DNA of 44,624 bases. Source: a virus. The stretch is taken from IMG/VR virus record IMGVR_UViG_3300007513_000073, positions 1-44,624 of that record. One strand, written 5' to 3'. A program made the translations under genes and the position numbers. Position 1 is the first letter of the stretch. The number at the start of each line of letters is the position of its first letter. Shown here one piece after another: positions 1,783 through 42,314 of this stretch. The notes below the pieces were generated by a model. That model searched no databases, was not told where the DNA came from, and saw only the letters and a program-made list of their open reading frames with translations.

Positions 1783-1898
1783 ATTACCACCAATTCGCTA
1801 GGTATTTGCATACGGGCACCTCAAGGGTGTCAGGTAGACCGTAGCCTATTTCTATATAATTCGTCAAGTTACGTTATCCAATCAAAAGAATTATACTA
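1783..1898. other. Intergenic gap between portal and protease genes
   Basis: This 116-base spacer is one of the few gaps in the packaging module. It is AT-rich toward the portal stop codon. I see no convincing terminator or promoter in it. Confidence 0.4.
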
Positions 1899-4328: not shown

Positions 4329-4360
4329 TCTAACCCCCAAACTATTTAACTATAACTTAT

Positions 4361-6007: not shown

Positions 6008-6318
6008 TATACCCCCAAAATACGCACTGGTTCGGGCTTATCGCCAATCACGCGCCAAACCTCATAGTGGTGTCCATTCTCATCTTTATATACTTGAATA
6101 CACAAACCAGCACGCCCAACAAAAGCCGTTCGTGATGCTGCCATCCGTGCAACTTCCAGTAGGTGCGAAAGTGTTTTCACATCCACATAAAACCGCACAT
6201 CCCTACCTGCCTCTGGTCCACCAAACACCGTTTCCCGCACAAGCTCATGCTGGTTGGCTCGTTGCAGCGGATTATGATTTACTTTTAGCTGATACTTTGG
6301 ATCTAGCGGATTCGACAT
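6007..6318 (-). CDS. Hypothetical protein upstream of terminase
   Basis: A 103-residue protein that I do not recognise. Its N-terminal half is polar and the C-terminal half (AFVGRAGLCIQVYKDE and then HHYEVWRVIGD) looks like a small beta-rich fold. AGGGAG precedes the ATG at 6318. It overlaps the methyltransferase gene upstream and the terminase start downstream (TAGTG). Its position right before the large terminase would suit a small terminase subunit, but there is no helix-turn-helix that I can see, so this is only a positional guess. Confidence 0.75.
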   Translation of the reverse strand: MSNPLDPKYQLKVNHNPLQRANQHELVRETVFGGPEAGRDVRFYVDVKTLSHLLEVARMAASRTAFVGRAGLCIQVYKDENGHHYEVWRVIGDKPEPVRILGV

Positions 6319-6881
6319 ATTTTCTCCCTTTCACGCTGACGCATTTCAAACTTTGAACGCATAGGTATATCAATACTATTCGGTGCTTCATTCCCGAACA
6401 CATCCCACCCATCATCACTGTCTCTCGCAAACATTTCCAGCTTATTTTGGGTTGGAAACATCTTGCTTATTAATTTCCTAAAAATTTTTGGCTTTACGCT
6501 ATGGGCACCCTTCTCTATCGAATAGTGCTGCCGAACATTCTGGGCACCTCGCGGTTTTGGAATGTTTCCACGTTTGCCGACGAGTACCAGCTCGCACATT
6601 GGCATTGTGTATTTTCCAAATGCGGGACGCTTCTTGTTCCAGATAAAGGCTATTGTTCTATACTTAAAGCCCCAAGCTGCCATTAACTCCAACGAATCCT
6701 CGAGCAAGGCTCCGCTGCTCCACATAAACAACAATGAGTTGTCGTCAGAAATACCTTCTACATTCATACGCTTCATTTCATCAAGCGGCATCGTACAATA
6801 TTCTTGTTGCCCCATAGTTGGGGCTGACGGTCTACCATAAGACCACGGGGGATCTGCATAGATAACCCCGTACTTTTTCAT
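6303..6881 (-). CDS. MT-A70-family adenine methyltransferase
   Basis: A 192-residue member of the MT-A70 family of N6-adenine methyltransferases, which transfer a methyl group from SAM to adenine. The catalytic motif IV DPPW lies at residues 10-13 (VIYADPPWSYG), followed by the family pattern of MPLDEMKRM and then SLLFMWSSGALLEDSLELMAAWGF. Further on come WNKKRPAFGKY, a basic loop with GNIPKPRG, and KMFPTQNKLEMFARD near the C-terminus. In phages such enzymes usually modify DNA and protect it from restriction; RNA cannot be excluded from sequence. It overlaps the upstream gene by four bases and the next gene by 16, so translation is coupled. The substrate motif is unknown. Confidence 0.9.
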   Translation of the reverse strand: MKKYGVIYADPPWSYGRPSAPTMGQQEYCTMPLDEMKRMNVEGISDDNSLLFMWSSGALLEDSLELMAAWGFKYRTIAFIWNKKRPAFGKYTMPMCELVLVGKRGNIPKPRGAQNVRQHYSIEKGAHSVKPKIFRKLISKMFPTQNKLEMFARDSDDGWDVFGNEAPNSIDIPMRSKFEMRQREREKICRIR

Positions 6882-7426
6882 GACCGGGCCACTACTGTTA
6901 AACCATTATTGTTATCAAAATGTTCTTTGATAAACCACTCTTGGTGCAGTTCCATAAATTCGTACAACGCTGGCATTAATCCACGCCCCTTACTGTTACC
7001 CATATCAGTAAATCCATAAATTTGCGTATCATGCAATATAATATACTTTGAAACCTTGCTTCCATGCTTGGCAAGTTCGGCCTGTAGCTGCCCATAGCTA
7101 TGATGAGTATCAATGAATAGCAATTCAGTCTCTTCAATCTCCACCTTACGGGTATCACCAAGAATAAATGTATAATTTATCCCTGCATCTTTAGTAACCG
7201 AATTTAGTAACTTGTGATCTCCACCAGCAAATGCCGGATGCGTAATATCAATTGAAACCATCTTCTCTGGTCTGCCAGCAAGCAGCCCATAGGTACTAAC
7301 GATCGACCTCACTCCCATTTCTGTCACATGAGAGCACTCCTCCGCATATCTCTTTAATGTAGGAAGATGCTCGTTAATATCACTGCGCTGTTTGCATTTC
7401 AATTCATATACTTCATCAAGATTCAT
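6878..7426 (-). CDS. Class I SAM-dependent methyltransferase-like protein
   Basis: About 182 residues. The core has a Rossmann pattern: VTEMGVRSIVSTYGLL (motif I region), MVSIDITHP (motif II acidic residue), FILGDTRKVEI, LLFIDTHHSYGQLQAEL, then YIILHDTQIYG. The D-T-H-H and ILHD pieces recall the methyltransferase-24/cephalosporin-hydroxylase-like group that acts on small molecules or sugars rather than DNA. I chose ATG at 7426 because GAGGGGAAAA lies directly before it; an upstream in-frame start at 7465 lies deep inside the neighbouring FmdB-like gene. It overlaps the next gene by four bases. The substrate is unknown. Confidence 0.78.
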   Translation of the reverse strand: MNLDEVYELKCKQRSDINEHLPTLKRYAEECSHVTEMGVRSIVSTYGLLAGRPEKMVSIDITHPAFAGGDHKLLNSVTKDAGINYTFILGDTRKVEIEETELLFIDTHHSYGQLQAELAKHGSKVSKYIILHDTQIYGFTDMGNSKGRGLMPALYEFMELHQEWFIKEHFDNNNGLTVVARS

Positions 7427-7625
7427 TTTTCCCCTCACCGGAAGTTTTAAGTCCGTACCCATCACGGAACCAACCGCGACCCTTTAAGATGAAACCAGAC
7501 GCACTAATCATCTTACGGGCCTCTCCCGCCCCACAGTCTGGACACTGTGGGTCCGCATCTCCGAACTTCATTAGCTTTTCAAAAGCAGCATTACACGACG
7601 AACACCTATACTCGTAGATCGGCAT
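7416..7625 (-). CDS. FmdB-family zinc ribbon protein
   Basis: This small protein starts MPIYEYRCSSC and has CPDCG about 20 residues later, the exact pattern of the FmdB/CxxC-CxxC regulatory protein family. It should bind one zinc ion. The ATG at 7625 shares a base with the stop of the upstream methyltransferase (TAATG), which fixes the start; an in-frame start at 7667 would add 14 unrelated residues. The 69 residues end with a basic glycine-rich tail (GRGWFRDGYG). FmdB-like proteins are common in phages and their role is unclear. Function beyond zinc binding is not inferred. Confidence 0.85.
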   Translation of the reverse strand: MPIYEYRCSSCNAAFEKLMKFGDADPQCPDCGAGEARKMISASGFILKGRGWFRDGYGLKTSGEGKNES

Positions 7626-8185
7626 TAGTCTTCCAGAACACGGAAAATACCAATGGCGTCCTTCCAATGATCTCTGGGATCAATATAACTCTCGAGCAAC
7701 TTCACATTATCTACCCAAGACTCCAGAGCTGGGTACGCACCCGATAAGAACCTCCATCGGTCTGGACGACAATGCTCATTGCCAGAAGAAGGCGTACAAA
7801 TATAAATCAAGCCACCGGGCTGAACGACCCGCGCCATTTCCTTAAAGGTTTCCCAAAACGCCGCATCATGCTCGAAGCAAGACGTGGAAACAACCACATG
7901 AAACTCATTATCCTCAAACGGCATCGAACCATGCGTGGAAACAACGTCCACACCCGGCCCCTTCCGTATATCTAAACCCACATACTCGTAATAAGGTATC
8001 TCGGATAGATTCTTAAAAAGTGGCCTCAAAGTACCATTTACATCATAACTACCAACATCAAGTATCCGAACCTTTGGACGATCTTCTGTTGGAGTAGTTG
8101 GACCCCGCTGACCGGCCAACTCTGCTAAATACTTGCCATACTTTACCGCAAACTTATTTGCGTTCTGTTTCGCAGAACCATGCAC
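7625..8185 (-). CDS. SAM-dependent methyltransferase (Methyltransf_11-like)
   Basis: About 186 residues with a full class I methyltransferase core: VRILDVGSYDVNG (SAM-binding motif I), YEYVGLDIRKGPGVDVV (motif II), MPFEDNEFHVVVSTSCFEHD and ARVVQPGGLIYICTPSSG. That layout is typical of ubiE/Methyltransf_11 enzymes acting on small molecules or glycans. The frame opens with TTG at 8197 without a ribosome site; GTG at 8185 has GGAGAGCG before it and is preferred. The gene sits in a run with an FmdB protein and a second SAM enzyme, so these may form one biochemical step. The substrate is unknown. Confidence 0.83.
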   Translation of the reverse strand: MHGSAKQNANKFAVKYGKYLAELAGQRGPTTPTEDRPKVRILDVGSYDVNGTLRPLFKNLSEIPYYEYVGLDIRKGPGVDVVSTHGSMPFEDNEFHVVVSTSCFEHDAAFWETFKEMARVVQPGGLIYICTPSSGNEHCRPDRWRFLSGAYPALESWVDNVKLLESYIDPRDHWKDAIGIFRVLED

Positions 8186-8200
8186 ACCGCTCTCCAATCA

Positions 8201-8416
8201 TTAAAGCTGATTAACAACTAGAGCTTCTTTAGCTCTAACAAGATCACCATAGGTAATAGTAAACTCACCCCGGCAACATATAACAACATCTGCGTGGTCT
8301 TCATCACCCGGTTGCGCCATGTCTGCAAACGGACGCAGAGCAGTCACCATATAGTCTTCACTATTATTTGAAGCAATCGAAAATACCGTCTTCGGTGTTG
8401 TCTTTTTCCGTGCCAT
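8201..8416 (-). CDS. Small hypothetical protein
   Basis: A 71-residue protein with no recognised family. It has a basic N-terminus (ARKKTTPKT) and a compact mixed-charge body ending in a short helix (RAKEALVVNQL). The ATG at 8416 has a perfect AGGAGG seven bases upstream, so translation is well supported. It lies four bases before the methyltransferase frame in the same transcript. Confidence 0.75.
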   Translation of the reverse strand: MARKKTTPKTVFSIASNNSEDYMVTALRPFADMAQPGDEDHADVVICCRGEFTITYGDLVRAKEALVVNQL

Positions 8417-8461
8417 TACATCCTCCTATACAGGTGCATAGTAACAGATAATGGCAACTAA

Positions 8462-8665
8462 TCAAACTTCACAATTGTTATCTACATCCGCCACCCAATC
8501 GGCCATTCGTTCAACGACCGCCGTGGTGTTCCTGTAAGTTTTAATCTTAAATTCTCCGTCTACAAACTCTACTTGTATCCAGTTCTCATTGTCGATAACC
8601 ACATATACCTTCTCCACTTGGTCGATATTCTTTACATCAGTTTGAACCTTCATATTATTACCCAT
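8462..8665 (-). CDS. Small hypothetical protein
   Basis: A 67-residue acidic protein without a recognised family. It alternates beta-like segments (VYVVIDNENWIQVEFVDGEF) with a C-terminal helix and a terminal Cys. GAGGAG precedes the ATG at 8665, which lies one base after the stop of the HNH gene, so it belongs to the same operon. Confidence 0.72.
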   Translation of the reverse strand: MGNNMKVQTDVKNIDQVEKVYVVIDNENWIQVEFVDGEFKIKTYRNTTAVVERMADWVADVDNNCEV

Positions 8666-8666
8666 A

Positions 8667-9938
8667 CTATTCTCCTCGTAAGTCCTGTAGTTGTTTTTTT
8701 AGTTGCTCTCTATTTTCTCCGTAATGGAGTTCTCGGTGGTGATTGGCACAAACGCAAACCATATTCTCCATCGTGTCTGGACCACCTTCCGCCATCATAA
8801 TCAAATGGTGAACCTCTACATACGGTAGACCATCTGGCTTAATAAAAAGCTCTACCGCACAACCATCGACCTCACACGCGTAACCAGCTCGCTTCTTAAC
8901 CAAATCGACTAACTTATGGTTTCTCTCGTAACCACGCTCAACAACACGAGACTTTCTACGCGGCTCTAGGTTCTCCTCCAGTTTTGCTAATGCTTCAAGG
9001 TTGGCTAGAGTTTCGCGCCCCTCCTCTGTCAGAGCTATCCGCGTATCACCCTCTGGCTCTTGCGCAAAATTACGCATAATAAACTGATCAACGAGAAAGG
9101 CCCACCTCTCCAATGCATCTGGCGCATCAGCATCGAAGTCCACAGTTTCACCTGAAACAACCTGCGCACCATCAGCCCCATCGTACTCCACTCCAAGAGC
9201 AAGGGTGCCGGGTCCATGAAACTCTGGCGTAGCATAAACAGACACCCCAGAATACTCTGGGTTAATAAGTTCAATTGTCAATATCTCTGGGTTGAGTGTT
9301 GGCACCCATCCCTGAACACCACCACTGGACAAAATCGCATCCGTTAATGTTGTAACTCCACTGACTTGCTTACTAGCAAGCATAACCGGATCGCTATTAA
9401 CAACATCCATCTGAATTTGGTGTTTCGGAGCGGGAAAAACACCCTCTGGCTCATCATCGTCTTTATGCCACGACACGCCGGTAACATTACCCTCGTCATC
9501 CGTCATAACATTCACTTTGCCGTCTGGATGATTATTTCCAAAGTGCTCTGTCATAAAATCTATCAGTTCGTCTGGCTCATAACCACGATCGGATATATCC
9601 AAATATAAAGTCTTATCCTCATCATCTATTGCAATATTTTCCATTGGAATATCCAGATCACGCAGATCTGGCTTTTCCTCTACCACGTCTGGCAAATGAC
9701 CCCTTCTACGGGCACGACGTTTAGCAAGCAGCCTATTCCGTCGCTGCATTGCCTTATCTGCCCTAGAGTTCGGATGCTCCGCACCCATACCCGCCTCCTG
9801 CACATTAAAACCCTTACTGCCCCTCCTTTGAGCACGGTTACCGCCTCCACGCTCATTTGCTTGACCAGCAGCACCCCTCTTCATTAAACCGCCCCCCTCG
9901 CTATCCCTCTTCCTACCTACAGCCCTTCGTTTTCCCAT
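8667..9938 (-). CDS. HNH endonuclease domain protein with long N-terminal region
   Basis: Residues about 345-415 form a clear HNH nuclease: a first Cys pair (CEVDGC), VEVHHLIMMAEGG holding the catalytic His pair, then MENMVCVCANHHRELHYG with the second Cys pair and the last metal-binding His. The first 85 residues are very basic and glycine-rich (RRNRLLAKRRARRRG), suggesting DNA or RNA contact, followed by about 250 residues of unrecognised, mostly acidic sequence. HNH proteins near terminase genes are often needed for packaging cleavage in phages, which is a plausible role here. The ATG at 9938 overlaps the upstream stop by one base. A homing endonuclease is the main alternative, but the operon position argues for a resident gene. 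Confidence 0.85.
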   Translation of the reverse strand: MGKRRAVGRKRDSEGGGLMKRGAAGQANERGGGNRAQRRGSKGFNVQEAGMGAEHPNSRADKAMQRRNRLLAKRRARRRGHLPDVVEEKPDLRDLDIPMENIAIDDEDKTLYLDISDRGYEPDELIDFMTEHFGNNHPDGKVNVMTDDEGNVTGVSWHKDDDEPEGVFPAPKHQIQMDVVNSDPVMLASKQVSGVTTLTDAILSSGGVQGWVPTLNPEILTIELINPEYSGVSVYATPEFHGPGTLALGVEYDGADGAQVVSGETVDFDADAPDALERWAFLVDQFIMRNFAQEPEGDTRIALTEEGRETLANLEALAKLEENLEPRRKSRVVERGYERNHKLVDLVKKRAGYACEVDGCAVELFIKPDGLPYVEVHHLIMMAEGGPDTMENMVCVCANHHRELHYGENREQLKKQLQDLRGE

Positions 9939-10171
9939 CAGTACACCTCATTCTCGTCTGGAAACACACGTTCCGGCTCATACGCACCCGGTCGTAACTT
10001 CACTGGCTCCAAACCCTTTGATACCCTGTGAACCTCATTCCATAACTTAAAACAACCACGACAGACCGGCTCACGCTCTCCGTTCACCCTTAACGACGGA
10101 ACCAGCTCTGGATTGAAGGAAATGGACCGCTCACACGACACACAAAACCCATGCATTATCATCCAACTCAT
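9938..10171 (-). CDS. Small zinc-ribbon-like protein
   Basis: A 77-residue protein with CVSC near residue 10 and CRGC near 39, a spacing that fits a single zinc ribbon. The rest is unrecognised, with basic and Pro-rich segments. The ATG at 10171 follows the stop of the upstream gene directly and its own stop overlaps the next start, so it is embedded in the operon. It may be a nucleic-acid-binding accessory for its HNH neighbour; this is inference. Confidence 0.75.
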   Translation of the reverse strand: MSWMIMHGFCVSCERSISFNPELVPSLRVNGEREPVCRGCFKLWNEVHRVSKGLEPVKLRPGAYEPERVFPDENEVY

Positions 10172-10756
10172 TTAACGACCCCACTGCATAGCCATAGCTT
10201 TGGCAATACCCACATACGTCTCTGACCGTATCCTCCACCTATCTTCCGATGGACCCAACACATTCTGACCACTCAATGTCTGATTGTCCCATACACCACA
10301 TTTTGGGATCTTTAGAACATTCGTTGGCTGCAACGGCGGCAAACGCTTTAACCACAAACCCGTTTTCTTGGAATGAGGATGACCGAACTCATACGGATGG
10401 ATATACTGGTCTGGTGGCCTAATCGCTGTTGAAATACGTCCTACAGGATTCTCAATACATATTCGGCCAATAGGCGCGTTCATCAAATGACGAACAAACT
10501 TTAATGCCTCTTCCGTCTTATGGCTCCGACCAAAACGACGCTTATTCCAATGTAATCCACTACCAGACAAATAAGTGCAAGGCGGATGAGCTATCATCAA
10601 ATCCCAACCCTTATTTAGTACAAATCGTACATCACACTTGAGATGAGGACCGCCAACCACGCTTGGAAGCACATCGCAAGACCAAGCATCATGGCCACGC
10701 CGCAGAAATTGATCTCGCACAATCCCGCTGGATTCACATGCAACCAATACCCTCAC
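10172..10756 (-). CDS. DNA cytosine methyltransferase-like protein
   Basis: The 194 residues begin VRVLVACESSGIVRDQF, then GHDAWSCDVLP, then DLMIAHPPCTYLSGSG. This matches the start of C5-cytosine methyltransferases, where a SAM-binding segment is followed by a PPC motif; here the catalytic-loop equivalent is HPPCTYL. The segments IGRICIENPVGRIS and YEFGHPHSKKTGLWLKRLP resemble the ENP motif and later core. It is shorter than classic C5 enzymes and belongs to the compact phage type, so activity and target are uncertain. I chose GTG at 10756 because GGAG lies five bases before it; the longer frame from 10822 adds an unlikely N-terminus. Confidence 0.78.
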   Translation of the reverse strand: MRVLVACESSGIVRDQFLRRGHDAWSCDVLPSVVGGPHLKCDVRFVLNKGWDLMIAHPPCTYLSGSGLHWNKRRFGRSHKTEEALKFVRHLMNAPIGRICIENPVGRISTAIRPPDQYIHPYEFGHPHSKKTGLWLKRLPPLQPTNVLKIPKCGVWDNQTLSGQNVLGPSEDRWRIRSETYVGIAKAMAMQWGR

Positions 10757-10940
10757 AACGACTCCAAAAAAGAAATTTGCGGGACGGCTCGCTTCAAACA
10801 GCTTACCTGACGACACCCGCAATTACCGGCGTACTCTCTCGGCCCCCAAATGATTACAAGAACCGTAACTGGTGGCAGGGGTTAGGGACTCGTACACAAA
10901 GTTTTGGAATAGCCACCCCACACATTCGATAATAAAACAA
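10757..10940. other. Intergenic stretch between small unknown gene and cytosine methyltransferase-like gene
   Basis: The 184 bases carry the ribosome-binding GGAG of the downstream GTG start at their left end and a short inverted repeat GGTGGC/GCCACC toward the right. I see no tRNA cloverleaf and no T-run terminator. Confidence 0.35.
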
Positions 10941-11219
10941 TTACTTTGCTGCATACTTATTCTTACGTTTGTTGACGACCCTATCACACTCTCGCTTCGC
11001 CGCTTTGAGGTTATAGGTGCCGCCGCCTCCTACCCATCTATCATTCGTTGGAATTTCAGAATGGTGATCCTTGTCCAACCATAAATGATAGGTGGCCGCG
11101 CAAAGGCCATTACCGATCGTAATTGTCGCTCCGATTACTTCATTGTCGGTTTCATACTTCTTTTTATAAACCATGTTTCCATAGCCATCATCAGTGCCGC
11201 GACTCCATCGCCCAGCCAT
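10941..11219 (-). CDS. Hypothetical protein
   Basis: A 92-residue protein starting MAGRWSRG with GGAGG five bases upstream of ATG 11219; the frame continues open to 11285 but that extension lacks a ribosome site. It has a Trp and Gly-rich body (YHLWLDKDHHSEIP, RWVGGGGTYNLKAAKRECD) and a basic tail. The central part resembles small secreted or lectin-like beta proteins only vaguely, so no function is assigned. It lies downstream of the endolysin. Confidence 0.68.
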   Translation of the reverse strand: MAGRWSRGTDDGYGNMVYKKKYETDNEVIGATITIGNGLCAATYHLWLDKDHHSEIPTNDRWVGGGGTYNLKAAKRECDRVVNKRKNKYAAK

Positions 11220-11329
11220 AACTTCCTCCAAGTCTGGTTTGAACCACATGAGGGACCACCACCCTGCGTAGGAAAATTCCCACAAGTGGACACCTGTGCA
11301 GGGTTGGTGGCGGTCCTATACCCTATAAA

Positions 11330-12151
11330 TCAGGAAACCGGACCTTTTGCAAGCCATGACTTTATGCTTTGGGGATCTATCGCTAATCTTACCATATGGA
11401 CCCCAACTTTCGACTCAATCCTACCGGTCCAAGTCTGGGTCACACGGTCCACCCAGTTCGGGCCGGGGTTCAACACGTCCCTCAATGGACCAATCTGACC
11501 CCAACCAGCCCCATTAATACTTCCCACAGCCTCTAACGTCAGAATCTTATCCGTCGCCGGATCATAATCCAAAACTATCAAACTATGACCACCACTAGAG
11601 GTAAAATACTGCAACAAGTATGCACCCTCACCGGGAGCCGTAGTACCCACACCCCACTGGAGTATTACCCTCGGACCCCAGTTCGGCACCACCGGAACAG
11701 AACCACTGTCACTTGTGGAAACCATCCACAACTTCCACTGCTCACTTGTAAACGATACACCCTCAAAAGCATACGCCAACAACCAAGAAGTAAACTGCAC
11801 GCAATTCGTCCACTCATCACCAATATTACGCAAACTCATTCCCGGTGGATTACTCGGACACTGGGCATCGCTTAAACGATACTCCTGCGGCAACATCTGT
11901 GGAAACAAGTCAGCCACCACTTGGAAGTCTATCGGCAAACCTAAATCCACACCACCACTACGCAATGCATCCCAAGTCTTCGAACCCACAACACCATCCG
12001 CCACTAAACCACTAGCAGACTGAAAAGACTTCACATTCGCTTCCGTTCCCGAACCAAATACACCATCCACCGTCGTCCGATAACCACTCTCGGTCAACAA
12101 CGTCTGGCACTCCTTCACCTCTATACCACTGTCACCCTTACGCAATACCAT
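11330..12151 (-). CDS. Endolysin with N-terminal peptidoglycan-binding domain and Cys/His peptidase-like domain
   Basis: This is the likely cell-wall hydrolase for lysis. Residues 1-65 (VLRKGDSGIEVKECQTLL, then YRTTVDGVFGSGTEANVKSFQ, then LVADGVVGSKTWDAL) are a textbook PG_binding_1 repeat. The remaining 200 residues contain DEWTNCVQFTSWLLA (candidate catalytic Cys), SGGHSLIVLDYD (candidate catalytic His) and acidic and Asn residues behind it. This is the order expected of CHAP or NlpC/P60-like amidases or peptidases, though I cannot assign the exact family. The ATG at 12151 overlaps the upstream membrane-protein stop (TAATG) and has AGGAG before it. No signal peptide is present, so release needs a holin; several small membrane proteins lie next to it. 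Confidence 0.85.
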   Translation of the reverse strand: MVLRKGDSGIEVKECQTLLTESGYRTTVDGVFGSGTEANVKSFQSASGLVADGVVGSKTWDALRSGGVDLGLPIDFQVVADLFPQMLPQEYRLSDAQCPSNPPGMSLRNIGDEWTNCVQFTSWLLAYAFEGVSFTSEQWKLWMVSTSDSGSVPVVPNWGPRVILQWGVGTTAPGEGAYLLQYFTSSGGHSLIVLDYDPATDKILTLEAVGSINGAGWGQIGPLRDVLNPGPNWVDRVTQTWTGRIESKVGVHMVRLAIDPQSIKSWLAKGPVS

Positions 12152-12588
12152 TACCAACTCCTCGACACTAGCAAACCACCCACCGAACCAATCACACATA
12201 AAAGTATATCCCACCAATCAAATGTACCACGGAACATAGATAGACTTTGGAGGACTTCAATACACCCTACAAGGCATCCCGGCAGTAAAACCGACCCAAG
12301 GTATATCCAACCCCCCTCGGATCGCCACAAACGGCAAAAGAATCCCGTACAGGCATATACCCATACTCCTAGAGGCAAACTATAAACGAACCACAAAGGA
12401 AATAGGCTCCTATACGGATTCGCCAACTCCCTAACCCAACTCAATACACCGTCAGGACGGTAGCACCCCACCGCGCCCATTACTTCAAATATGAGCAAAT
12501 GGTCTGGACGCCACAATAAATAGATAATCGACCCCAAACAAATTGGGATAACACAATTCCAAAGGAAAAATTTTCTATTTACAGGCAA
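12151..12588 (-). CDS. Multi-pass membrane protein (VanZ-like), lysis region
   Basis: A 145-residue protein with about four hydrophobic segments (FFLWNCVIPICLGSIIYLLW, LFPLWFVYSLPLGVWVYACT, WIYLGSVLLPGCLVG and the C-terminal DILLCVIGSVGGLLV). The pairing of IEVLQSLSMFRGTFDWWD with a final hydrophobic helix is like the VanZ family. It directly precedes the endolysin and shares a base with it, so it could be the holin; that is positional inference. The start appears to be TTG at 12588, without a visible ribosome site, overlapping the end of a 26-codon membrane peptide gene in another frame. Translation may therefore depend on coupling or on a frameshift from that peptide. Confidence 0.75.
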   Translation of the reverse strand: MPVNRKFFLWNCVIPICLGSIIYLLWRPDHLLIFEVMGAVGCYRPDGVLSWVRELANPYRSLFPLWFVYSLPLGVWVYACTGFFCRLWRSEGGWIYLGSVLLPGCLVGCIEVLQSLSMFRGTFDWWDILLCVIGSVGGLLVSRSW

Positions 12589-12659
12589 AACGTAGAAAGG
12601 AGGACAAAACCCCCCACGGCGTAGATGGTGACCAACACTTTAGAATCTAAATTAAACAT
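12579..12659 (-). CDS. 26-residue single-span membrane peptide
   Basis: A very short frame with a perfect AGGAGG placed correctly before the ATG at 12659 and a stop at 12579. After six polar residues it is one continuous hydrophobic segment (VLVTIYAVGGFVLLSTF), so it should span the membrane once. It overlaps the start of the VanZ-like protein by ten bases in the minus-one frame. It also contains G GGG GGT in the zero frame at codons 15-17, a possible minus-one slippery site. Its position next to endolysin suggests a lysis regulator or a leader for the next gene; this is inferred. Confidence 0.6.
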   Translation of the reverse strand: MFNLDSKVLVTIYAVGGFVLLSTFCL

Positions 12660-12667
12660 GGAACCTC

Positions 12668-12967
12668 CTAAATAAATTTAGCTATCAGCCCGGTTACGGA
12701 AAGCACCAGACCTATATAGGCCAAACGCTTCGCACGGGTCGCGGTACTGTATGCGTCTCCCAAGTTATCCCGTTTGATTTTGTAATCAAAATGTTGGAGC
12801 GGGCTTAATTTGGGTATGGCTTCAAAGAAGTCGGGACAATCACGCTGTTCGTACTCATCTTGTCGCGCCAAACGGTGCTGATACCACAAACAGACCCCAG
12901 AATACTTATTTTCATGGTGTTCATCGGGGTATTTATTATATAGGCCACATCGACCACATCTAGCCAT
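12668..12967 (-). CDS. Small Cys-rich protein with C-terminal membrane helix
   Basis: A 99-residue protein. The N-terminus has CGRCG and later Cys/His residues (about residues 4-45) that could bind zinc. The C-terminus ends in a hydrophobic segment (LAYIGLVLSVTGLIAKFI) that would anchor it to the membrane with the N-terminus in the cytoplasm. GGGG lies before the ATG at 12967, two bases after the previous stop. It belongs to the lysis-region operon; a holin or antiholin role is possible but unproven. Confidence 0.7.
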   Translation of the reverse strand: MARCGRCGLYNKYPDEHHENKYSGVCLWYQHRLARQDEYEQRDCPDFFEAIPKLSPLQHFDYKIKRDNLGDAYSTATRAKRLAYIGLVLSVTGLIAKFI

Positions 12968-12968
12968 T

Positions 12969-13196
12969 CTATTGCCCCATACACGGTATCAAGCTCTCAC
13001 CTGCGTCGGATACTATCACAACCGTATTGGGGAGTATACGGTCTACTACCCAACCATCTGCCAGCTCTAACCCTTCACTAAAGGCTCTACAATGCGGAAT
13101 GTCACCAAATAAGAGGTAGGACTCCAAAGGGGAGTGGCTATGAGGGCTACAGTTTATGAGAATAGTCATCATGGTTAGGATTAGGAACATTTGCAT
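12969..13196 (-). CDS. Small exported or membrane-anchored hypothetical protein
   Basis: A 75-residue protein with a hydrophobic N-terminus (MFLILTMMTILINCS) that looks like a signal peptide or a poor lipobox ending in Cys. The rest (GWVVDRILPNTVVIVSDAGE) resembles short periplasmic beta-hairpin segments seen in secretion-type proteins. The ribosome site is weak. It overlaps the preceding membrane frame by 50 bases. A spanin-type lysis role would fit the neighbourhood, but the lipobox is not canonical. Confidence 0.5.
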   Translation of the reverse strand: MQMFLILTMMTILINCSPHSHSPLESYLLFGDIPHCRAFSEGLELADGWVVDRILPNTVVIVSDAGESLIPCMGQ

Positions 13197-13359
13197 TACT
13201 CGGAGGGTAGGGAGAGGCGGCTACATATATCAGCCAACAGCAACATCTTACAAGTAATGGGATGACGCCAAATGTAAACACCCACCCTACTAAAACGTAA
13301 AAAGATACAACTAATGCTAACTCGAAAGATCCTATGTAGTCTGGGTTAGATGTGTACAA
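13147..13359 (-). CDS. Possible small membrane protein
   Basis: A 70-residue frame with one or two hydrophobic segments (LALVVSFYVLVGWVFTFGVI and PLLVRCCCWLIYVAA) and a polar Pro/Asn-rich tail. The only upstream start is a TTG at 13359 with no ribosome site, so it may be the end of a longer or decayed gene. It is the last gene-like frame before the long gene-poor region to its right. Confidence 0.4.
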   Translation of the reverse strand: MYTSNPDYIGSFELALVVSFYVLVGWVFTFGVIPLLVRCCCWLIYVAASPYPPSNANVPNPNHDDYSHKL

Positions 13360-14560
13360 ATTTTACCGGGGAAAAGATTAAAAATACCTTGGTCCCCCCA
13401 CGGGGGACTATGGGGGAAGAATAATTTTATATAAATAGATCTTAATACAAATCATATATCTCTTAATATATCTTATTATATATCTATTATTCTCACAATG
13501 GGCATATCGACCTTTAAACCCCCATTATAAGAGGGGTAAATTATACAATTATCTCTAAAACAGGTTTAATGGATAAACTTATAAGGGGTATAGACTCACT
13601 AGGTCCAAAAATTTTAGAAAAAAAAATTCAAGACTCACTAGATGATAAAAAGTATGAAAAATCGGTCGGCAGGAGGTGTCCCTCAAATATCATATTCTTG
13701 GAATCATATTCTGTAGGGGGGAGAGGTGAGGTTCAACCTATGATATGAGGCATTACCTCATGTGGATTCTAGGGTCATCATATCTATTGGCAATGGCAAC
13801 TATCATACTCTCCTGGCCCATATCATAGGTTGTAAGGTCATTATCATAGGATAAACCCCTATAAAATAGGCCAAAATCATAGGGCATAGGCGGTCCAAAG
13901 TGGGCATATACCCTCATTAATAGGCATATCACCAACATCATATTCATAGGCACAAAGGGATATTCCTACTACAACCATTCATATCCTTTGAGCGCTCATG
14001 GTGTTTCTAGGGAACGGCCAATATCATAGGACTCCCCTCCACTATGGTGTGGGTCTACCCCATACAGGTTTCACCAATTCATATCCAATATCCAATAAAC
14101 ATAGGTCATAACTTCACTTTCATAGGCTAACTCAACCTTCCTATTCATAGGTACAACATACTCAATCTGTCATTCCTGGCCTACAACCTACATTTATTCC
14201 ATACACAGGATTTCAAACCATATCCTACCATCGGCAAAAGTTGGCTAGGTAATTACCATATCATCAAAAGGAAAATAATTTTCCTATTATCGGCTCCCAT
14301 ATCCATACTCTCAATTCTATAAAAGGGGGCTGGCATATGCGGCATTGTACCTACAAAATCGGCTATTTGGCTCAAAATTTTAATATCTATCAAACGGCTA
14401 TTAATACCCTTCCATCCATGTCAATACTCGGTTCAATCATATTCATACCATCAACCTCATATCTCATATTCTCACCATACAATCCCCCACCTACCAACAC
14501 CAATAAACATACCCTTTACAGGCTCACATTACCCCCTGGAGGGACTTCACCGGCAATCTG
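13360..14560. other. Gene-poor AT-rich stretch grading into the isolated-G desert
   Basis: I see no convincing gene here. At 13.39-13.50 kb it is AT-rich with runs of TATAT. An 11-base direct repeat AGACTCACTAG occurs at about 13592 and 13631. From about 13.8 kb copies of ATCATAGG begin (13822, 13843, 13876, 14023) and isolated G becomes rarer to the right: between 14101 and 14560 only six isolated G remain on the plus strand (14169, 14240, 14339, 14347, 14420, 14560). A reverse copy CCTATGAT lies at 13738 and an AGCGCT palindrome at 13991. A 66-codon minus frame at 13753-13953 is open but poorly supported. Confidence 0.6.
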
Positions 14561-14640
14561 CGGGTCTGGGCAAGGGTAAACCCCTTGGACGGCTTCTGGG
14601 GGCATTCTAGGGGCTACAATCGGCATGGTTGGTTTGGTGG

Positions 14641-14870
14641 GTCAATATACAGGATAGGATCGGTCCATATCCATACTCGGATCGGATACCGGATCGGATC
14701 GGATCATAGGGCTAGGGTCCACGGAATAGGGGATACAGGCTATCCCTAGGATCATAGGGACCGGATACAGGGAAACCCGGCACCATAGGATAGGGACCGG
14801 GTTCATAGGGCTAGGGATCGGATCATAGGGGATCGGATCGGATCATAGGGATCCCCAAACCAAAATACCC
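14641..14870 (+). repeat. GGATCGGATC-rich imperfect tandem repeats, left arm
   Basis: Successive imperfect units of CGGATC, GGATCATAGGG and TAGGGACCGG fill this stretch, giving many GATC tetramers. It sits on the downstream side of the single gene in the desert, and a similar array lies on the upstream side at 16.2-16.4 kb. It could be a protein-binding array or slippage product; no direct evidence separates these. Confidence 0.7.
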
Positions 14871-15067
14871 CTATCCGGTTAGGGATAGGGGTACTGGGGA
14901 TCGGCTAGGCTATCGGGTTAATCGGTTACACAACTCCACACGGATAATAGGATCAGGAAGGTATAAAGGCTTGGCAGGGTAATCACAAGGTTAATCATAG
15001 GGTACTCCAATAGGGGCTAGGGGTGGCCCCTACCCGGTATTGGGTAGGGGCTAGGGGTTAGGGGTTA

Positions 15068-15712
15068 TTACTTGGCTAGGGATTCACGGGAAACCAATTC
15101 CCATACCAACAAACCATTGGGATCAATTGGGGTATCCTTATCGGTGGGATTGGTATTCTCTACGGTCCAAACCATATCCTTCCCGGTTCCAAATAATCCC
15201 TTGGTGGAAATGGAATACAGGGCTTTATGGCCACTATTGGCTCTCTTACCGGGTTCTTTGGTAGGGTTACCAAAATACTCTTTATATTTCACACAGGATA
15301 CGGGAAACCCACGGGCCAACATATCGGCATGGGAAACCATAATACAGGTTTCACCGGTATCACCTACCAATTCGGTCAATAGGGATACAACCCGGTCTAG
15401 GAATTTTGGCTTCGGGGTATTTTTCCGGATTTTGGCTACTTTGGCCTCAATTACCTTCATGGCAAAATCCCATACATTGGTGGGATCATCGGAAAACTTA
15501 CCTATTCCCAACTCATTACAGGGACCGGCATACTTCATATCACCATAACGGGTAACCTTGGAATACAGGGGATCGGCTACTAGGGCCGGTCCAAAATTAT
15601 CTCGGGTCCAATCGGTGGATTCACATATGGCGGATACAATATCCTCAATTCGGAAACCGGTTAGGGCTAGGATTAGGGTAGGGGTTTCAACTTTTTTATT
15701 GGCTTTGGCCAT
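15068..15712 (-). CDS. Unrecognised protein encoded inside the isolated-G desert
   Basis: A 214-residue protein of no family that I recognise. The ATG at 15712 has AAGGAAG seven bases upstream; the frame is open to 15835 but that extension has no better start. The sequence looks like a real globular protein (LILALTGFRIEDIVSAICES, FLDRVVSLLTELVGDTGE, CIMVSHADMLARGF, NGLLVWELVSRES). Codon choice is extreme: every Ala is GCC, every Thr ACC, and every Ser TCC except single AGT-type exceptions. There is no Gln at all, and both His codons follow a codon ending in C. These choices are just what is needed to avoid isolated C on the coding strand. An intact frame shows selection for function despite the constraint. 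Confidence 0.8.
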   Translation of the reverse strand: MAKANKKVETPTLILALTGFRIEDIVSAICESTDWTRDNFGPALVADPLYSKVTRYGDMKYAGPCNELGIGKFSDDPTNVWDFAMKVIEAKVAKIRKNTPKPKFLDRVVSLLTELVGDTGETCIMVSHADMLARGFPVSCVKYKEYFGNPTKEPGKRANSGHKALYSISTKGLFGTGKDMVWTVENTNPTDKDTPIDPNGLLVWELVSRESLAK

Positions 15713-16446
15713 TTCATCACTTCCTTTCAATTTGGGATCATTCCCAACCGGTCGGGACTCATTCCCTATCGGCACAACCATAATAACCGGATATGGAAAT
15801 AATTCATAAACATAACTAACCGGAAAATCATACACCGGGAATAAACATAGGGAGAACCGGCAATATCATCGGCTCAAAATAATTCTTTTTTTTATATATT
15901 CCAAGGATCACCTCAAAATATCCAATTTTTAATCGGCCTATTCCATAGGATGTAACTACAATATCCTTTGGCACCACGGCATTTCAATCCAGGCTATTCG
16001 GTTATATGGTAGGAAGGAAGGGGATTTATCGGGATAGGGTCCACCAGGTATCCTATTAATTCGGGTATTGGATGGGGGCAAAATCGGATCGGCTCAAAAT
16101 CGGGCCATTCATACCTCTATATATAGGGACAACAAAATCATACATACCCATTCTGGCCATATCATAGGGTCTAACTACCATACCTCTGGAATGGATGGAT
16201 ATTCCATATCCTAGGATCTCGGATCATAGGGGATCGGATCAAAATCATAGGATCTCGGATCTTTCATATTTTGGATTTCAAAATCATAGGATCTCGGATC
16301 TCAAAATATCAGGATCTCAAAATCATAGGATCGGATCAAAATCATAGGATCGGATCAAAATCATAGGATCTCGGATTTTCAATATCTCGGATCTCGGGAT
16401 CATAGGATCGGCCAAAATCGGATCGGATTTCGGTCGGAAAAATTTT
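15713..16446. other. Non-coding right arm of the isolated-G desert
   Basis: Upstream of the single gene, this stretch holds a T-run near 15886-15893 and then GGATC/GATCTCGG-type repeats with eight ATCATAGG copies (16161-16406). No gene is supported; a short minus frame at 16342-16596 owes its C-terminal RSYD repeats to the DNA repeats. A promoter for the gene should lie here but I cannot point to a convincing one. Confidence 0.6.
16201..16440 (+). repeat. ATCATAGGATCTCGGATC-type imperfect tandem repeats, right arm
   Basis: The words ATCATAGGATC, TCGGATC and CGGATCAAA recur in varied order with seven ATCATAGG copies in about 185 bases. The array ends at the right border of the isolated-G desert. 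The resemblance to the left array (14641-14870) lies in the shared GGATC and ATCATAGG words rather than a long common unit. Confidence 0.75.
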
Positions 16447-16506
16447 GTCCCGGTCATGGAAAATATTGTCCCAACCTCCAAAATTCCTAGGATTCACATT
16501 AAGGGT

Positions 16507-16563
16507 ACTAGTGGCACGGTCAAGGGAAAATCCACCCTTAAAGGATATTCTAGGGCCACTAGT
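16507..16563. repeat. Nested inverted repeat at the right border of the desert
   Basis: Outer arms ACTAGTGGC (16507-16515) and GCCACTAGT (16555-16563) are perfect complements. Inside them AAGGG and CCCTT form a second stem. It lies just outside the last zero-isolated-G stretch and could be a cruciform or protein-binding site. Confidence 0.7.
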
Positions 16564-16641
16564 GACGAGGCAACCGGCCCAAAACCGAGGCTGCATAGGA
16601 ATGAAGTTGTCCTCTTTTTCTGGGAGAAAATAAATAAGTTT

Positions 16642-16851
16642 AGCGCTTAATAAAAACGTTTACGTTTTTATTATTCATATTCCTAAATCCAGGCCCCAGC
16701 TCTCTTTTGGAAAACTTTTGAAGTTCTCTGTCGGACAAAATCCGAAGCGCTTACAAATTCACCGAAGGCGAGCGCTGAAAATAAATGACGATGAAAGAAA
16801 AAATATGCCGTCACGGTGAAGCTGTGCCCCGTGGCAGAGCGCTCGAGCGCT
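16642..16851. repeat. Cluster of five AGCGCT palindromes
   Basis: AGCGCT occurs at 16642, 16746, 16771, 16838 and 16846, the last two forming a larger palindrome around CTCGAG. One more copy lies on the other side of the desert at 13991 and another at 22825. Five copies of a hexamer in 210 bases is far above chance. The sequence here is rich in isolated G, the opposite of the neighbouring block. Confidence 0.75.
16649..16672. repeat. Perfect AT-rich palindrome
   Basis: Arms AATAAAAACGT (16649-16659) and ACGTTTTTATT (16662-16672) are perfect complements around a two-base centre. It could be a transcription stop in either direction or a binding site for a symmetric protein. It directly follows the first AGCGCT. 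Confidence 0.7.
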
Positions 16852-16920
16852 AACCAAGAAAACGAATCCAGAAAAAGAACCTCGATTTAAGTTGGCTAAC
16901 CAAATTTGAGCGGCCAGCTT

Positions 16921-17015
16921 TTTGGCCAAGTTTTGAGCTGGCGTTTGAAGTTTGCGTTTGTCGAGTGCGTGTGAGTGTCGCCGCGTGCGCCGCGCGTCGT
17001 GTTTGGCCAAGTTTT
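16921..17015 (+). repeat. Direct repeat TTTGGCCAAGTTTT, two copies
   Basis: The 14-base word occurs at 16921-16934 and 17002-17015, each followed by GAG or AAG. Each copy contains the palindrome TTGGCCAA. The stretch between is G/T and CpG rich. No gene is supported; an 83-codon minus frame over this stretch looks like low-complexity translation. Confidence 0.6.
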
Positions 17016-17353
17016 AAGTGGAGTTTGTATTAAATTAAATTAATAATACTCAATACTATATATAATATATAATACATTATAACTACATTATAGTAAGTTT
17101 TGAAAGTCTCTCACTCACCCCCATTAAAGTTGACACTCAACTCTGCTCATACCCTTACTTAAAGTGTATAGGTTTTTTAATTTTAAGTAATGGCACCGAC
17201 AAATCATTTTAATTTTCACCCTACCCCTAACCACCAACAACCAGTCAAAACCTCACCACGGGGCCGTTAGGCGGCCGATACGGTACAAGTACGGGCACCC
17301 CACTCCTCCTACCCCCTCCTACCCCCTACCCTACCCTACTGGGTACGCCTCCG

Positions 17354-17426
17354 ACCTATATACAGAATTTGTTATGGTTTTTAGCTTGGAGCGTATTGGA
17401 TATTGAAACTAGGGGGGTATAAAAGA
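17354..17426 (+). repeat. Long intergenic repeat element, copy 1
   Basis: This copy shares with 35764-35840 the ordered blocks ACCTATATA, ATTTGTTATGG, TTTTT, and TATTGAA followed by CTAGGGGGGT and an AAAA run. Spacing differs by only a few bases. Its partner sits just downstream of a minus-strand operon end, which suggests a role in transcript ending or processing. Confidence 0.65.
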
Positions 17427-17666
17427 CAGGGTGTTGAGGGGAAGGCGACCATAATCACATTATCCGTGTGTACAGCGCGGTTAAAGTGAACAACATGGGC
17501 ATGGTTGTCTATCCCCCCAACACTGTGGCCATACCCCCGTATAAAGATCCTATCGGCACACCCAACCTTCTATTTAACGACAAACATCACTGTTAAAGAA
17601 AGCTGGTGGTCCGAATATATAGGTATAGGTATACATATACTCATTCAGGATTTTTTTTGAAAATCA

Positions 17667-17702
17667 AACCCCCGAAGTTCGAAAAACGAAACTAGGGGGG
17701 TT
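17667..17702 (-). terminator. Stem-loop terminator at the end of the early operon
   Basis: AACCCCC (17667-17673) pairs with GGGGGTT (17696-17702), and an inner GTTCG/CGAAC-like stem extends it. On the minus strand the hairpin is followed by TTTGATTTT. It lies about 28 bases past the stop at 17730 of a long minus-strand gene run, so a rho-independent terminator is the natural reading. It carries the CTAGGGGGG word found at three other places. Confidence 0.65.
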
Positions 17703-17729
17703 AAAATAGGTGGTTATTCGAGGTTTAGT

Positions 17730-19969: not shown

Positions 19970-20331
19970 GACACCCCCAAATCATTTTGGTATGCCATCC
20001 AAACGTGTTCAGTAAGGAAACCTTCTGTGTAGAAGTGGCTCACCAGAGGAGCGGTGAAGGCCAGATCCTCTATGTTTTTGGCATGATTCGCCAAACTTCC
20101 TGGATATATCCGAAGCACATCTCCAGATATTGTTGGGTCACTAGAAAGTTCAAGTCGGGCTTCAACTGAAGCAAGACCCTTTGGGGTTAGCCATGCTGGT
20201 TCAACAACCAGAAGCCACTGGTGGCCATCGCAGTCATTGGCACGGAGTAAACAAACCTCTTGGATTAGTCTAGTCATTTCATTCCTCACAGTTACATTCT
20301 TCATTTCATTCCTCACAGTTACGTTACTCAT
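19966..20331 (-). CDS. Hypothetical protein with three tandem start sites
   Basis: The core protein begins MTRLIQEVCLLRAND at ATG 20277. Two further in-frame ATG at 20304 and 20331 each lie exactly 27 bases apart, and all three are preceded by the same GTGAGGAANGAA ribosome site. The N-terminal extension therefore reads as the repeat NVTVRNEM. The rest (about 103 residues) is unrecognised. I give the longest form; which start dominates cannot be told. Confidence 0.72.
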   Translation of the reverse strand: MSNVTVRNEMKNVTVRNEMTRLIQEVCLLRANDCDGHQWLLVVEPAWLTPKGLASVEARLELSSDPTISGDVLRIYPGSLANHAKNIEDLAFTAPLVSHFYTEGFLTEHVWMAYQNDLGVS

Positions 20332-20348
20332 TTTCTTCCTCACAGTTA
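20284..20348 (-). promoter_or_regulatory. Triple ribosome-binding-site repeat, 27-base period
   Basis: TAACTGTGAGG occurs three times with plus-strand starts at 20284, 20311 and 20338, always 27 bases apart. Each copy places GAGG correctly before an in-phase ATG. The outermost copy overlaps the end of the upstream gene. Confidence 0.8.
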
Positions 20349-21660: not shown

Positions 21661-21799
21661 CACTCACCTCCGATTTATTCACCCAACGGCGAATCATCCC
21701 CTCATAGGGATGGTAATATTCAATACGGATTCGCTCCGTACCAACTTCCAAAATATGCCCTCGGCGGTTGCCGAACATTACTGCATCACCACGCTTCAT
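21653..21799 (-). CDS. 48-residue basic protein
   Basis: ATG 21799 has GGGAG six bases upstream and overlaps the upstream stop, so the short form (starting MKRGDAVMFGNRRGH) is preferred over the 89-codon open frame. The body (RIRIEYYHPYEGMIRRWVN) looks like a small SH3-like or KOW-like beta barrel. Function unknown. Confidence 0.65.
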   Translation of the reverse strand: MKRGDAVMFGNRRGHILEVGTERIRIEYYHPYEGMIRRWVNKSEVSDA

Positions 21800-22431
21800 C
21801 GCTGGCTCCCAATGATCCGCACTGCGGTTTCCATATCTGTTGGGGTGGTTCCATGTGGAACCAACACCATTCGGGAGTCCCGATGGCGGTCGGTATTCCA
21901 AGTCACCGGTTCGAGGAGCCAAAAGGCACCATGAATCATCTCGGTTTGGTAGTTGTCATCATCAACAATCACTGAAAATTCTGTGGTTTTCAGTTCATCT
22001 TGGATCTCTGGGAGACATATATGGGCCAATTCACATACGGCCCAATTAATCGTTTCCTCATAGGAATTGAAGAGGTAATAATGGCCGTAGGCATTATCAT
22101 ACTCATCCAAATTACTATAATACTCATAAACGTCTGCCATCAGTTCCGCTACGAACCCTTGGATTGCCAGAGCTTCGGTTGGCGGGCAGTTGCCGTTCAT
22201 CACGGCTACGAGGGTACGGGACACCAAGTCCCATTCGGCCTTCTCAAGATCATCTCCCTCCACCTTGTGGAGCAGGATGGAGGCGAGAACTCCTGGCCCC
22301 CACAGTTCTCGGACGGTATGGCCGTGGCTGCTTTCGGCTAAATATTCTTCGAGGATAACCCCCGAAATTTCAACACCTTTCTTCGTGGCTCGGCCACCAA
22401 AAGAGTACATACGGTTCTCAAAATGTTTCAT
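21796..22431 (-). CDS. Hypothetical protein, first gene after a promoter
   Basis: A 211-residue protein starting MKHFENRMYSFGG at ATG 22431, with AGGAA upstream. A longer frame opens at 22485, but that ATG would lie only a dozen bases after the promoter -10 box at 22497-22502, so the shorter form is preferred. The protein is rich in Glu and Tyr with no recognised motif. It heads a run of small minus-strand genes. Confidence 0.72.
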   Translation of the reverse strand: MKHFENRMYSFGGRATKKGVEISGVILEEYLAESSHGHTVRELWGPGVLASILLHKVEGDDLEKAEWDLVSRTLVAVMNGNCPPTEALAIQGFVAELMADVYEYYSNLDEYDNAYGHYYLFNSYEETINWAVCELAHICLPEIQDELKTTEFSVIVDDDNYQTEMIHGAFWLLEPVTWNTDRHRDSRMVLVPHGTTPTDMETAVRIIGSQR

Positions 22432-22496
22432 TTTTTCATTCCTATTCTCATGTGGGTTCAACGTGGGTTTCAACTTATCTTCCAACTTAACACCCT

Positions 22497-41880: not shown

Positions 41881-42314
41881 CAATCTTCCCTCATTGAAAA
41901 ATCTGCCCAACAATTGGGGGTTTCGTACACCCGTATTGCTGCTGTTTTTACACCATATGGCGTTAATAACTCGTTGCTTTTCATGTACAGATACTCTGCC
42001 ATGTTCTCCGCTGTCGGGTTGCTCGGTAATATATACAATTTCCAATTCTGTTCGTTGCATAGATTAATAATCTCCCCATCGTTAGTATTGACAATTGTTC
42101 CGTGATCCCACTTTTCATCAAGCCACTTGCCAAACACGGCTTTGATCACACCAAAATCGATTACCCGTCCAAGCTCATCTAGTCCCATAGAACACGCGGT
42201 CACCTCAACCACATACCTGTGACCATGTAGGTTTCTACACTTACTCTCATGTAGCATGACCCTGTGTGCGGCATCAAACTCAAGTTTCCTCGTACAATAC
42301 CGCAGTCCACTCAT
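41880..42314 (-). CDS. queD: 6-carboxytetrahydropterin synthase (QueD)
   Basis: A 144-residue protein of the QueD/6-pyruvoyl-tetrahydropterin synthase family, which makes 6-carboxytetrahydropterin from dihydroneopterin triphosphate, the second step toward preQ0. The zinc His are in FDAAHRV and LHGHRY; the catalytic Cys is in KCRNLHGH; DELGRVIDFGVIK, NPTAENMAEYLY and ETPNCWADF complete the family pattern. Full length is normal. It overlaps the ParB-like gene by four bases. In the DpdA context it most likely feeds 7-deazaguanine synthesis for phage DNA, with the remaining steps (FolE, QueE, QueC) outside the window or supplied by the host. Confidence 0.93.
   Translation of the reverse strand: MSGLRYCTRKLEFDAAHRVMLHESKCRNLHGHRYVVEVTACSMGLDELGRVIDFGVIKAVFGKWLDEKWDHGTIVNTNDGEIINLCNEQNWKLYILPSNPTAENMAEYLYMKSNELLTPYGVKTAAIRVYETPNCWADFSMRED

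Follow-up and report, generated by a model that had tools for sequence, protein, structure and literature searches.

Near-absence of isolated guanine from one strand of a 2-kb zone in a phage that encodes a DpdA-like transglycosylase

Why does one gene of a phage, together with the non-coding DNA on both sides of it, contain almost no cytosine that stands alone on its coding strand? The question arises in the window, by which we mean the whole 44,624-nucleotide stretch analyzed here (IMG/VR record IMGVR_UViG_3300007513_000073). Seen from the plus strand, the same pattern is a zone in which guanine occurs almost only in runs. The gene, termed gene X, and the parts of the zone are as follows.

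15068 to 15712, minus strand: gene X, encoding a 214-residue orphan protein, with codons that follow the rule without exception
14421 to 16440, plus strand: strict zone, coding and non-coding, with G nearly only in runs of at least two (equivalent to almost no isolated C on the minus strand)
13751 to 14420, plus strand: left transition zone, 12 of 52 G-runs isolated (23%)
13500 to 13750, plus strand: outer left transition, 15 of 30 G-runs isolated (50%)
16441 to 16600, plus strand: right edge, 8 of 21 G-runs isolated

Only 3 of the 194 plus-strand G-runs in the strict zone are single, and the others have lengths of two (125), three (48), four (16), and five (2), whereas single G accounts for 75.8% of the 4280 G-runs in the rest of the window (positions 1 to 12500 and 17501 to 44624). 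In 500 dinucleotide-preserving shuffles of 14421 to 16440, single G numbered 79.4 on average and 66 at minimum; since the shuffles have the same dinucleotides, the rule exceeds a mere excess of GG. GG and GGG are enriched 3.3-fold and 5.6-fold in the zone, respectively, and A runs and T runs are near normal. Isolated C on the plus strand is normal in the strict zone, and the rule is therefore strand-specific; the other phage genes on the strand of gene X do not obey it. Block by block from the left, the single-run share is 0.51 (12218 to 12700), 0.64 (12668 to 13196), 0.61 (13147 to 13499), 0.50 (13500 to 13750), 0.25 (13751 to 14000), 0.23 (14001 to 14420), 0.01 (14421 to 15067), 0.00 (gene X), 0.03 (15713 to 16440), 0.38 (16441 to 16600), and 0.78 (16600 to 17600, where 119 of 153 runs are single again). 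The right edge is thus sharp, at about 16.45 to 16.5 kb, and the left edge is gradual, from 13.5 to 14.4 kb. The rule is equally strict in the approximately 1.4 kb of non-coding DNA that flanks gene X on both sides.

The first-pass annotation had described gene X as a reading frame whose codons are bent to this rule, and our recount excludes a normal frequency of isolated C: the coding strand has 0, against a mean of 67.7 (range, 50 to 84) in 2000 synonymous recodings based on the codon use of the phage. With 3 against a mean of 79 in the shuffles and 0 against 67.7 in the recodings, the motif lies far below the expectation from composition, as in motif avoidance. The codon counts were reproduced (GCC for 15/15 Ala, ACC for 18/18 Thr, 11 TCC and 1 AGT for Ser), as were the position of every CTN codon after a C (9/9) and that of both His codons (TCC CAT and GGC CAT). 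The Leu, Arg, and His codons that start with C, 18 in total, all follow a C, which in 12 cases ends an NCC codon, while 8 of the 10 Leu codons that are not preceded by an NCC codon are TTR. Pro does use all four of its codons (CCA 2, CCC 7, CCG 2, CCT 2), but it is not neutral as had been supposed, because CCC makes up 7/13 compared with a background of 14%. Gln was said to be missing to a degree that carries the constraint to the protein level; its count of 0/214 is the lowest of the 34 window proteins, but the effect is modest and suggestive rather than conclusive, and two other window proteins (182 and 209 residues) hold just 1 Gln each. Lys amounts to 9.8% of the protein compared with 4.8%, and Ala, Thr, and Ser are not depleted.

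The frame itself appears to be maintained. An ATG frame of 214 codons or longer arose in just 2 of 2000 simulated 2020-bp stretches of non-coding composition, the starts of C-runs are codon-phased (44, 9, and 7; chi-square, 43), and AGGAAG precedes the ATG, in agreement with the intact frame and ribosome site noted earlier. Ordinary codon bias does not describe this pattern, as had been argued, because the rule concerns the context of C, the frame is bent to fit it and yet kept open, and non-coding DNA obeys it as well. Other phage genes could be recoded nearly without isolated C: under synonymous changes alone, 28 genes would retain 0 to 6.6 per 214 residues. The further proposal that the protein helps to create or tolerate the constraint finds no support: the non-coding flanks are equally strict, and gene X therefore seems to be a passenger. 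No match to the protein was obtained in Pfam, PHROGs, or NCBIfam, relatives were not found in IMG/VR or GTDB genomes, and a single-sequence structure model was uninformative (pLDDT, 44.7). Weak matches were obtained to the phage Tunturi_5 (tblastn; E = 0.2) and, over 35 residues, to a protein of the related contig G004 (E = 0.037).

The rule was not encountered elsewhere. Among 143 loci (2,158,619 bases with overlaps counted, including L001, itself a piece of the window), the lowest 400-bp single-run share outside the zone was 0.37 (L105), compared with 0.00 in the zone. No scanned segment fell below 0.46 in 18 more loci (L144 to L161) or in L163 and L165 to L167, a set that excludes L162 and L164, both of them parts of G004. 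A word search of IMG/VR yielded 17 loci, none with the rule, and literature searches returned nothing on "isolated cytosine" in phage genomes and nothing that resembles the rule. Within these literature searches and locus scans, on which the claim of novelty is based, the constraint is real, strict, and unreported, and nothing known explains the near-absence of lone G; the phenomenon is striking. The searched DNA contained no known RNA families or tRNAs and had no plasmid matches. The sole phage DNA match, a 30-base hairpin shared with Rhizobium phage 16-3 and its kin, is terminator-like and was judged to be due to chance.

From right to left, the window carries early genes, an intergenic block, the odd zone and its gene X, then small genes, an endolysin-like gene, a group that includes an MT-A70-family gene, the terminase, and the portal. 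A sister contig (G007; metagenome 3300023112) runs approximately 21 kb beyond the right end of the window, and L002 from the same metagenome extends past the left end; the genome is therefore larger than the window. The features of this neighborhood are as follows.

11333 to 12217, minus strand: endolysin-like gene with a peptidoglycan-binding domain (Pfam PF01471)
14864 to 14895, minus strand: terminator-like hairpin downstream of gene X, a consensus match only
16231 to 16409, no strand assigned: imperfect repeats of short words (GGATCGGATCAAAATCATA and variants), all of which conform to the rule
16600 to 17720, no strand assigned: intergenic block of ordinary rule between the early genes and the zone, AT-rich at 17035 to 17100, with TTTGGCCAAGTTTTGA-like repeats and AGCGCT motifs

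Terminator-like sites are not more numerous than in shuffled sequence. The 16600 to 17720 block may contain a promoter or an origin. For a promoter at the right edge of the zone, the scan gave no support, as no sigma-70-like promoter was found there.

A terminase search for relatives gave 18 loci initially and 80 with alignment. The most informative is L008, with a terminase 68% identical to that of the window and a homologous lysin (69% identical; L008:918-1727); it starts within an odd stretch directly upstream of the lysin gene. The endolysin-like gene serves as an anchor and places the odd region of L008 at the same locus. Isolated C on the lysin strand follows A in 25 of 26 cases there (19 of 20 distinct 9-mers), compared with 564 of 1539 from base 901 of L008 onward, and this after-A share is the highest of 18,994 segments with at least 15 isolated C, the next other contig reaching 0.76. 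Expressed on the other strand, the L008 pattern is an avoidance of isolated G before A or C. As a 13-kb fragment, from a metagenome other than that of the window, L008 gives no indication of whether DpdA is present. Within the window, the isolated C that remains on the minus strand in 13751 to 14420 likewise follows A in 8 of 12 cases, whereas that in 13500 to 13750 follows T in 12 of 15, contrary to an order in which A is spared.

Two further relatives share low-complexity DNA at the locus but not the rule. G004 (85.8 kb) carries, between the terminase and the early genes, G-rich low-complexity sequence at its two contig ends, which look alike by eye; this is a weak anomaly without a clean rule. 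G003 (76.3 kb; a frame spans its ends) has 27.7 copies of a 7-base unit (TTAATCN; TAATCGT and variants) between the early genes and the next gene (L026:15517-15710), and this array, at the corresponding place, shows no isolated-base rule. The array is a candidate origin or partition site in its own right. An odd low-complexity stretch at this locus is thus shared, and the rule is strict in the window and milder in L008, i.e., one full and one partial case.

The right end of the window contains two genes of 7-deazaguanine metabolism, placed around two adjacent ParB-like genes (42314 to 43760).

41883 to 42314, minus strand: QueD, 6-carboxytetrahydropterin synthase family (PF01242, E = 4e-32; phrog_2389)
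43732 to 44586, minus strand: DpdA-like 7-deazaguanine transglycosylase (phrog_887, E = 5e-39)

The DSGGF motif is invariant in the DpdA alignment. One of the two ParB-like genes reaches a Pfam match, just under the cut-off. The DpdA of the sister G007 is 96% identical, and beside it lie QueC (E = 8e-64), FolE (E = 1.5e-75), and a radical-SAM gene, whose QueE-type reading is based on its place and the start of its sequence; these three genes belong to G007 and not to the window, which ends at DpdA. With QueD and DpdA in the phage and FolE, QueC, and the QueE-like gene in the sister, the DNA is predicted to carry 7-deazaguanine. DpdA matches at an E value of 0.001 were found in 3 of 16 contigs, namely, G007, G004 (two copies), and G014 (weak). 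The G004 copies lie at 63598 to 64443 (in L030) and 83182 to 83892 (in L031) of that contig, the second just downstream of the terminase. G014 shows no such zone over 80,000 scanned bases of its 80,695.

The reading that we prefer is that selection acts against a very short target on the plus strand, which would be resolved either by loss of the G or by gain of a neighboring G. On this view, the zone resembles DNA from which a target of some enzyme active on single strands has been purged. The plus strand is the template for the leftward transcription of gene X, and this template strand would be the relevant one. The sharp right edge beside the 16.6 to 17.7 kb block and the left edge that fades over less than 1 kb suggest a process that starts at about 16.5 kb and runs leftward, which may be transcription or replication. 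As a guess, the target would be the place where the DpdA of the phage itself inserts preQ0 instead of G, preferably at an isolated G that precedes A or C; reading the first transcript, or an origin-linked strand, off virion DNA may then require a template without modified G, and gene X would have evolved inside the zone and been recoded by it. We assign a probability of roughly one in four to selection against a short template-strand target, for which the exchange site of DpdA is the most likely guess. Selection is favored because the rule is strand- and region-specific, crosses coding and non-coding DNA, and does not lower G. The guess of DpdA gains from the variant of L008 at the same locus, from the after-A isolated C of 13751 to 14420, from the presence of DpdA and QueD in the window, and from the DpdA-negative G003, which lacks the rule. 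A context-specific DpdA also exists, as that of CAjan is reported to act at GA and GGC sites (PMC8306585). The guess is weakened because none of the three complete DpdA phages compared (Bipper, CAjan, and Vid5) has such a zone and because G004, with two DpdA copies, has only a weak anomaly. The after-T isolated C in 13500 to 13750, the lack of a clear promoter, and the normal genes on the same strand weigh against it as well. Literature searches found nothing on preQ0 in the template hindering RNA polymerase, and to our knowledge, neither such an effect nor a recognizer of the isolated-G motif is known.

The same geometry could be produced by strand-biased hypermutation, in which an enzyme deaminates C on the minus strand displaced by transcription or replication that moves leftward from about 16.5 kb, CC is spared, and gene X survives through resistant codons. 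One base on one strand is affected, with a sharp start and a fading end; the context order in L008 and 13751 to 14420 resembles the preference of a deaminase; the Leu codons not after NCC are mostly TTR (8/10); and on the plus strand, the transition zone has little G (0.149; multi-G runs, 0.058; isolated, 0.019) and much A. The base composition of the strict zone argues against it. Taken together, the two non-coding blocks have a G content of 0.236 and 0.095 multi-G runs per base, far above what a loss-only model that removes isolated G leaves (0.079 and 0.035, respectively); a model of avoidance, which accepts any change that does not add an isolated G, gives 0.15 to 0.17 and 0.067 to 0.073. 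Both models begin with normal sequence and apply simple mutation rates. Minus-strand C is 0.195 to 0.283 in the strict zone, compared with 0.174 to 0.191 in the late and early blocks. Deamination that simply removes C would lower the G content, which is not seen; loss alone is disfavored, and the data agree better, if not perfectly, with selective avoidance. Ala, Thr, and Ser are undepleted, Pro CCC is in excess, and a deaminase match was found in 0 of 20 window and sister proteins scanned with Pfam, a set that holds only a minority of the early genes. The Leu codons had seemed to be proof against loss, but that argument is too strong, since 7/9 CTN codons come after NCC codons, which protect them automatically. 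We regard hypermutation as unlikely, although a serious contender.

Multi-G runs are more frequent than even the avoidance model predicts, and the Pro codon CCC is overused, so the extension of G-runs appears to be favored as well. Taken alone, run extension with duplication of words, through slippage- or dislocation-prone copying of an origin-like low-complexity region, would remove isolated G as a by-product. The 3.3-fold and 5.6-fold enrichments, the word repeats, and the low-complexity DNA at or near the locus in L008, G004, and G003 are consistent with it. However, isolated G is absent even given the GG content (3 versus 79 in shuffles), the rule is strictest in an open gene with few repeats, and the runs remain short (125/194 of length two), which makes this explanation about as doubtful as hypermutation.

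A third possibility is that this stretch would be the first DNA to enter the cell and has lost a short, strand-specific site that a host nuclease or deaminase would attack, the remainder of the genome being protected later by gene X or other early products. A one-gene zone with one sharp and one graded border would fit, as would resolution in either direction, but we know of no host defense with such a target; we consider this proposal less likely than the preceding ones. That the pattern reflects normal codon bias, a gene of foreign origin, or an error of sequencing or assembly is very improbable, even though no relative of gene X was found: non-coding DNA obeys the rule, no other 400-bp segment among the 143 loci comes near it, a related pattern occurs at this locus in L008, which comes from another metagenome, and miscalled bases would not leave the frame open with Ala, Thr, and Ser kept. 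The cause may be avoidance, targeted mutation, or run extension.

A near-perfect, strand-specific neighbor rule that overrides codon choice over 2 kb requires that a mutator or selection act strongly and locally, and either would be new for a phage as far as we know. If avoidance of a DpdA site is the cause, a modified phage would keep one strand of approximately 2 kb free of every site of its own enzyme, so as to be read or copied as plain DNA; this stronger statement is decidedly tentative. Were such modification-free lanes real, the target sequences of DpdA could be read from genome sequence, and a tie to DpdA would reveal which sequences are preferred and what biological cost 7-deazaguanine DNA carries, both of which are poorly known. 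The window resembles the dPreQ0 phages Rosebush, CAjan, and Bipper in having DpdA and QueD, with FolE, QueC, and the QueE-like gene in the sister, and the neighborhood of ParB-like, DpdA, and QueD genes is like that of Bipper, which has one ParB-like gene; Bipper, CAjan, and Vid5 differ in lacking a region of this kind. About 28% of G is modified in Rosebush, and about 32% in CAjan. A compositionally odd stretch lies at or beside the gene of a DUF669/DUF699 protein in CAjan (L142:39001-39400) and Vid5 (L143:39001-39400).

Other known systems are alike in part. In the avoidance of restriction sites by phages, a short motif is also under-represented, apparently by selection that is able to change neighboring bases, whereas the zone concerns one strand, approximately 2 to 3 kb, and a one-base target with a neighbor rule and is near complete. 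Somatic hypermutation by AID or APOBEC-type deaminases is C-specific, strand-biased, and linked to transcription, with a sharp start and a fading end as in the zone; however, C and CC are not depleted in the zone, where both loss and gain seem to be used. Diversity-generating retroelements likewise make a local, base-specific change on one strand, but they alter adenine in a short variable repeat that has a template repeat, and the zone involves G/C over 2 kb. Iteron-type replication origins have repeats at regular spacing to which an initiator binds; the zone has imperfect word repeats, and G003 has its 7-bp array at the corresponding place.

Several minor anomalies were observed elsewhere in the window. 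The lysin gene (11333 to 12217) is C-poor, with 69 isolated C versus 98 in recodings (z = -4.4) and a normal single-run share. Right of the zone, 16762 to 17010 shows the opposite, an excess of isolated C in an open frame (58 versus 41.7; z = +3.7), and consists of CpG-rich alternating sequence. The early gene at 21799 to 22485 has 51 isolated C versus 79 in recodings (z = -4.8); it is far from the zone and has no gradient, and it may reflect a weaker form of the rule or just the use of C-ending codons. A 27-base tandem repeat of 2.8 copies is located at 20274 to 20348, at the start of an early gene.
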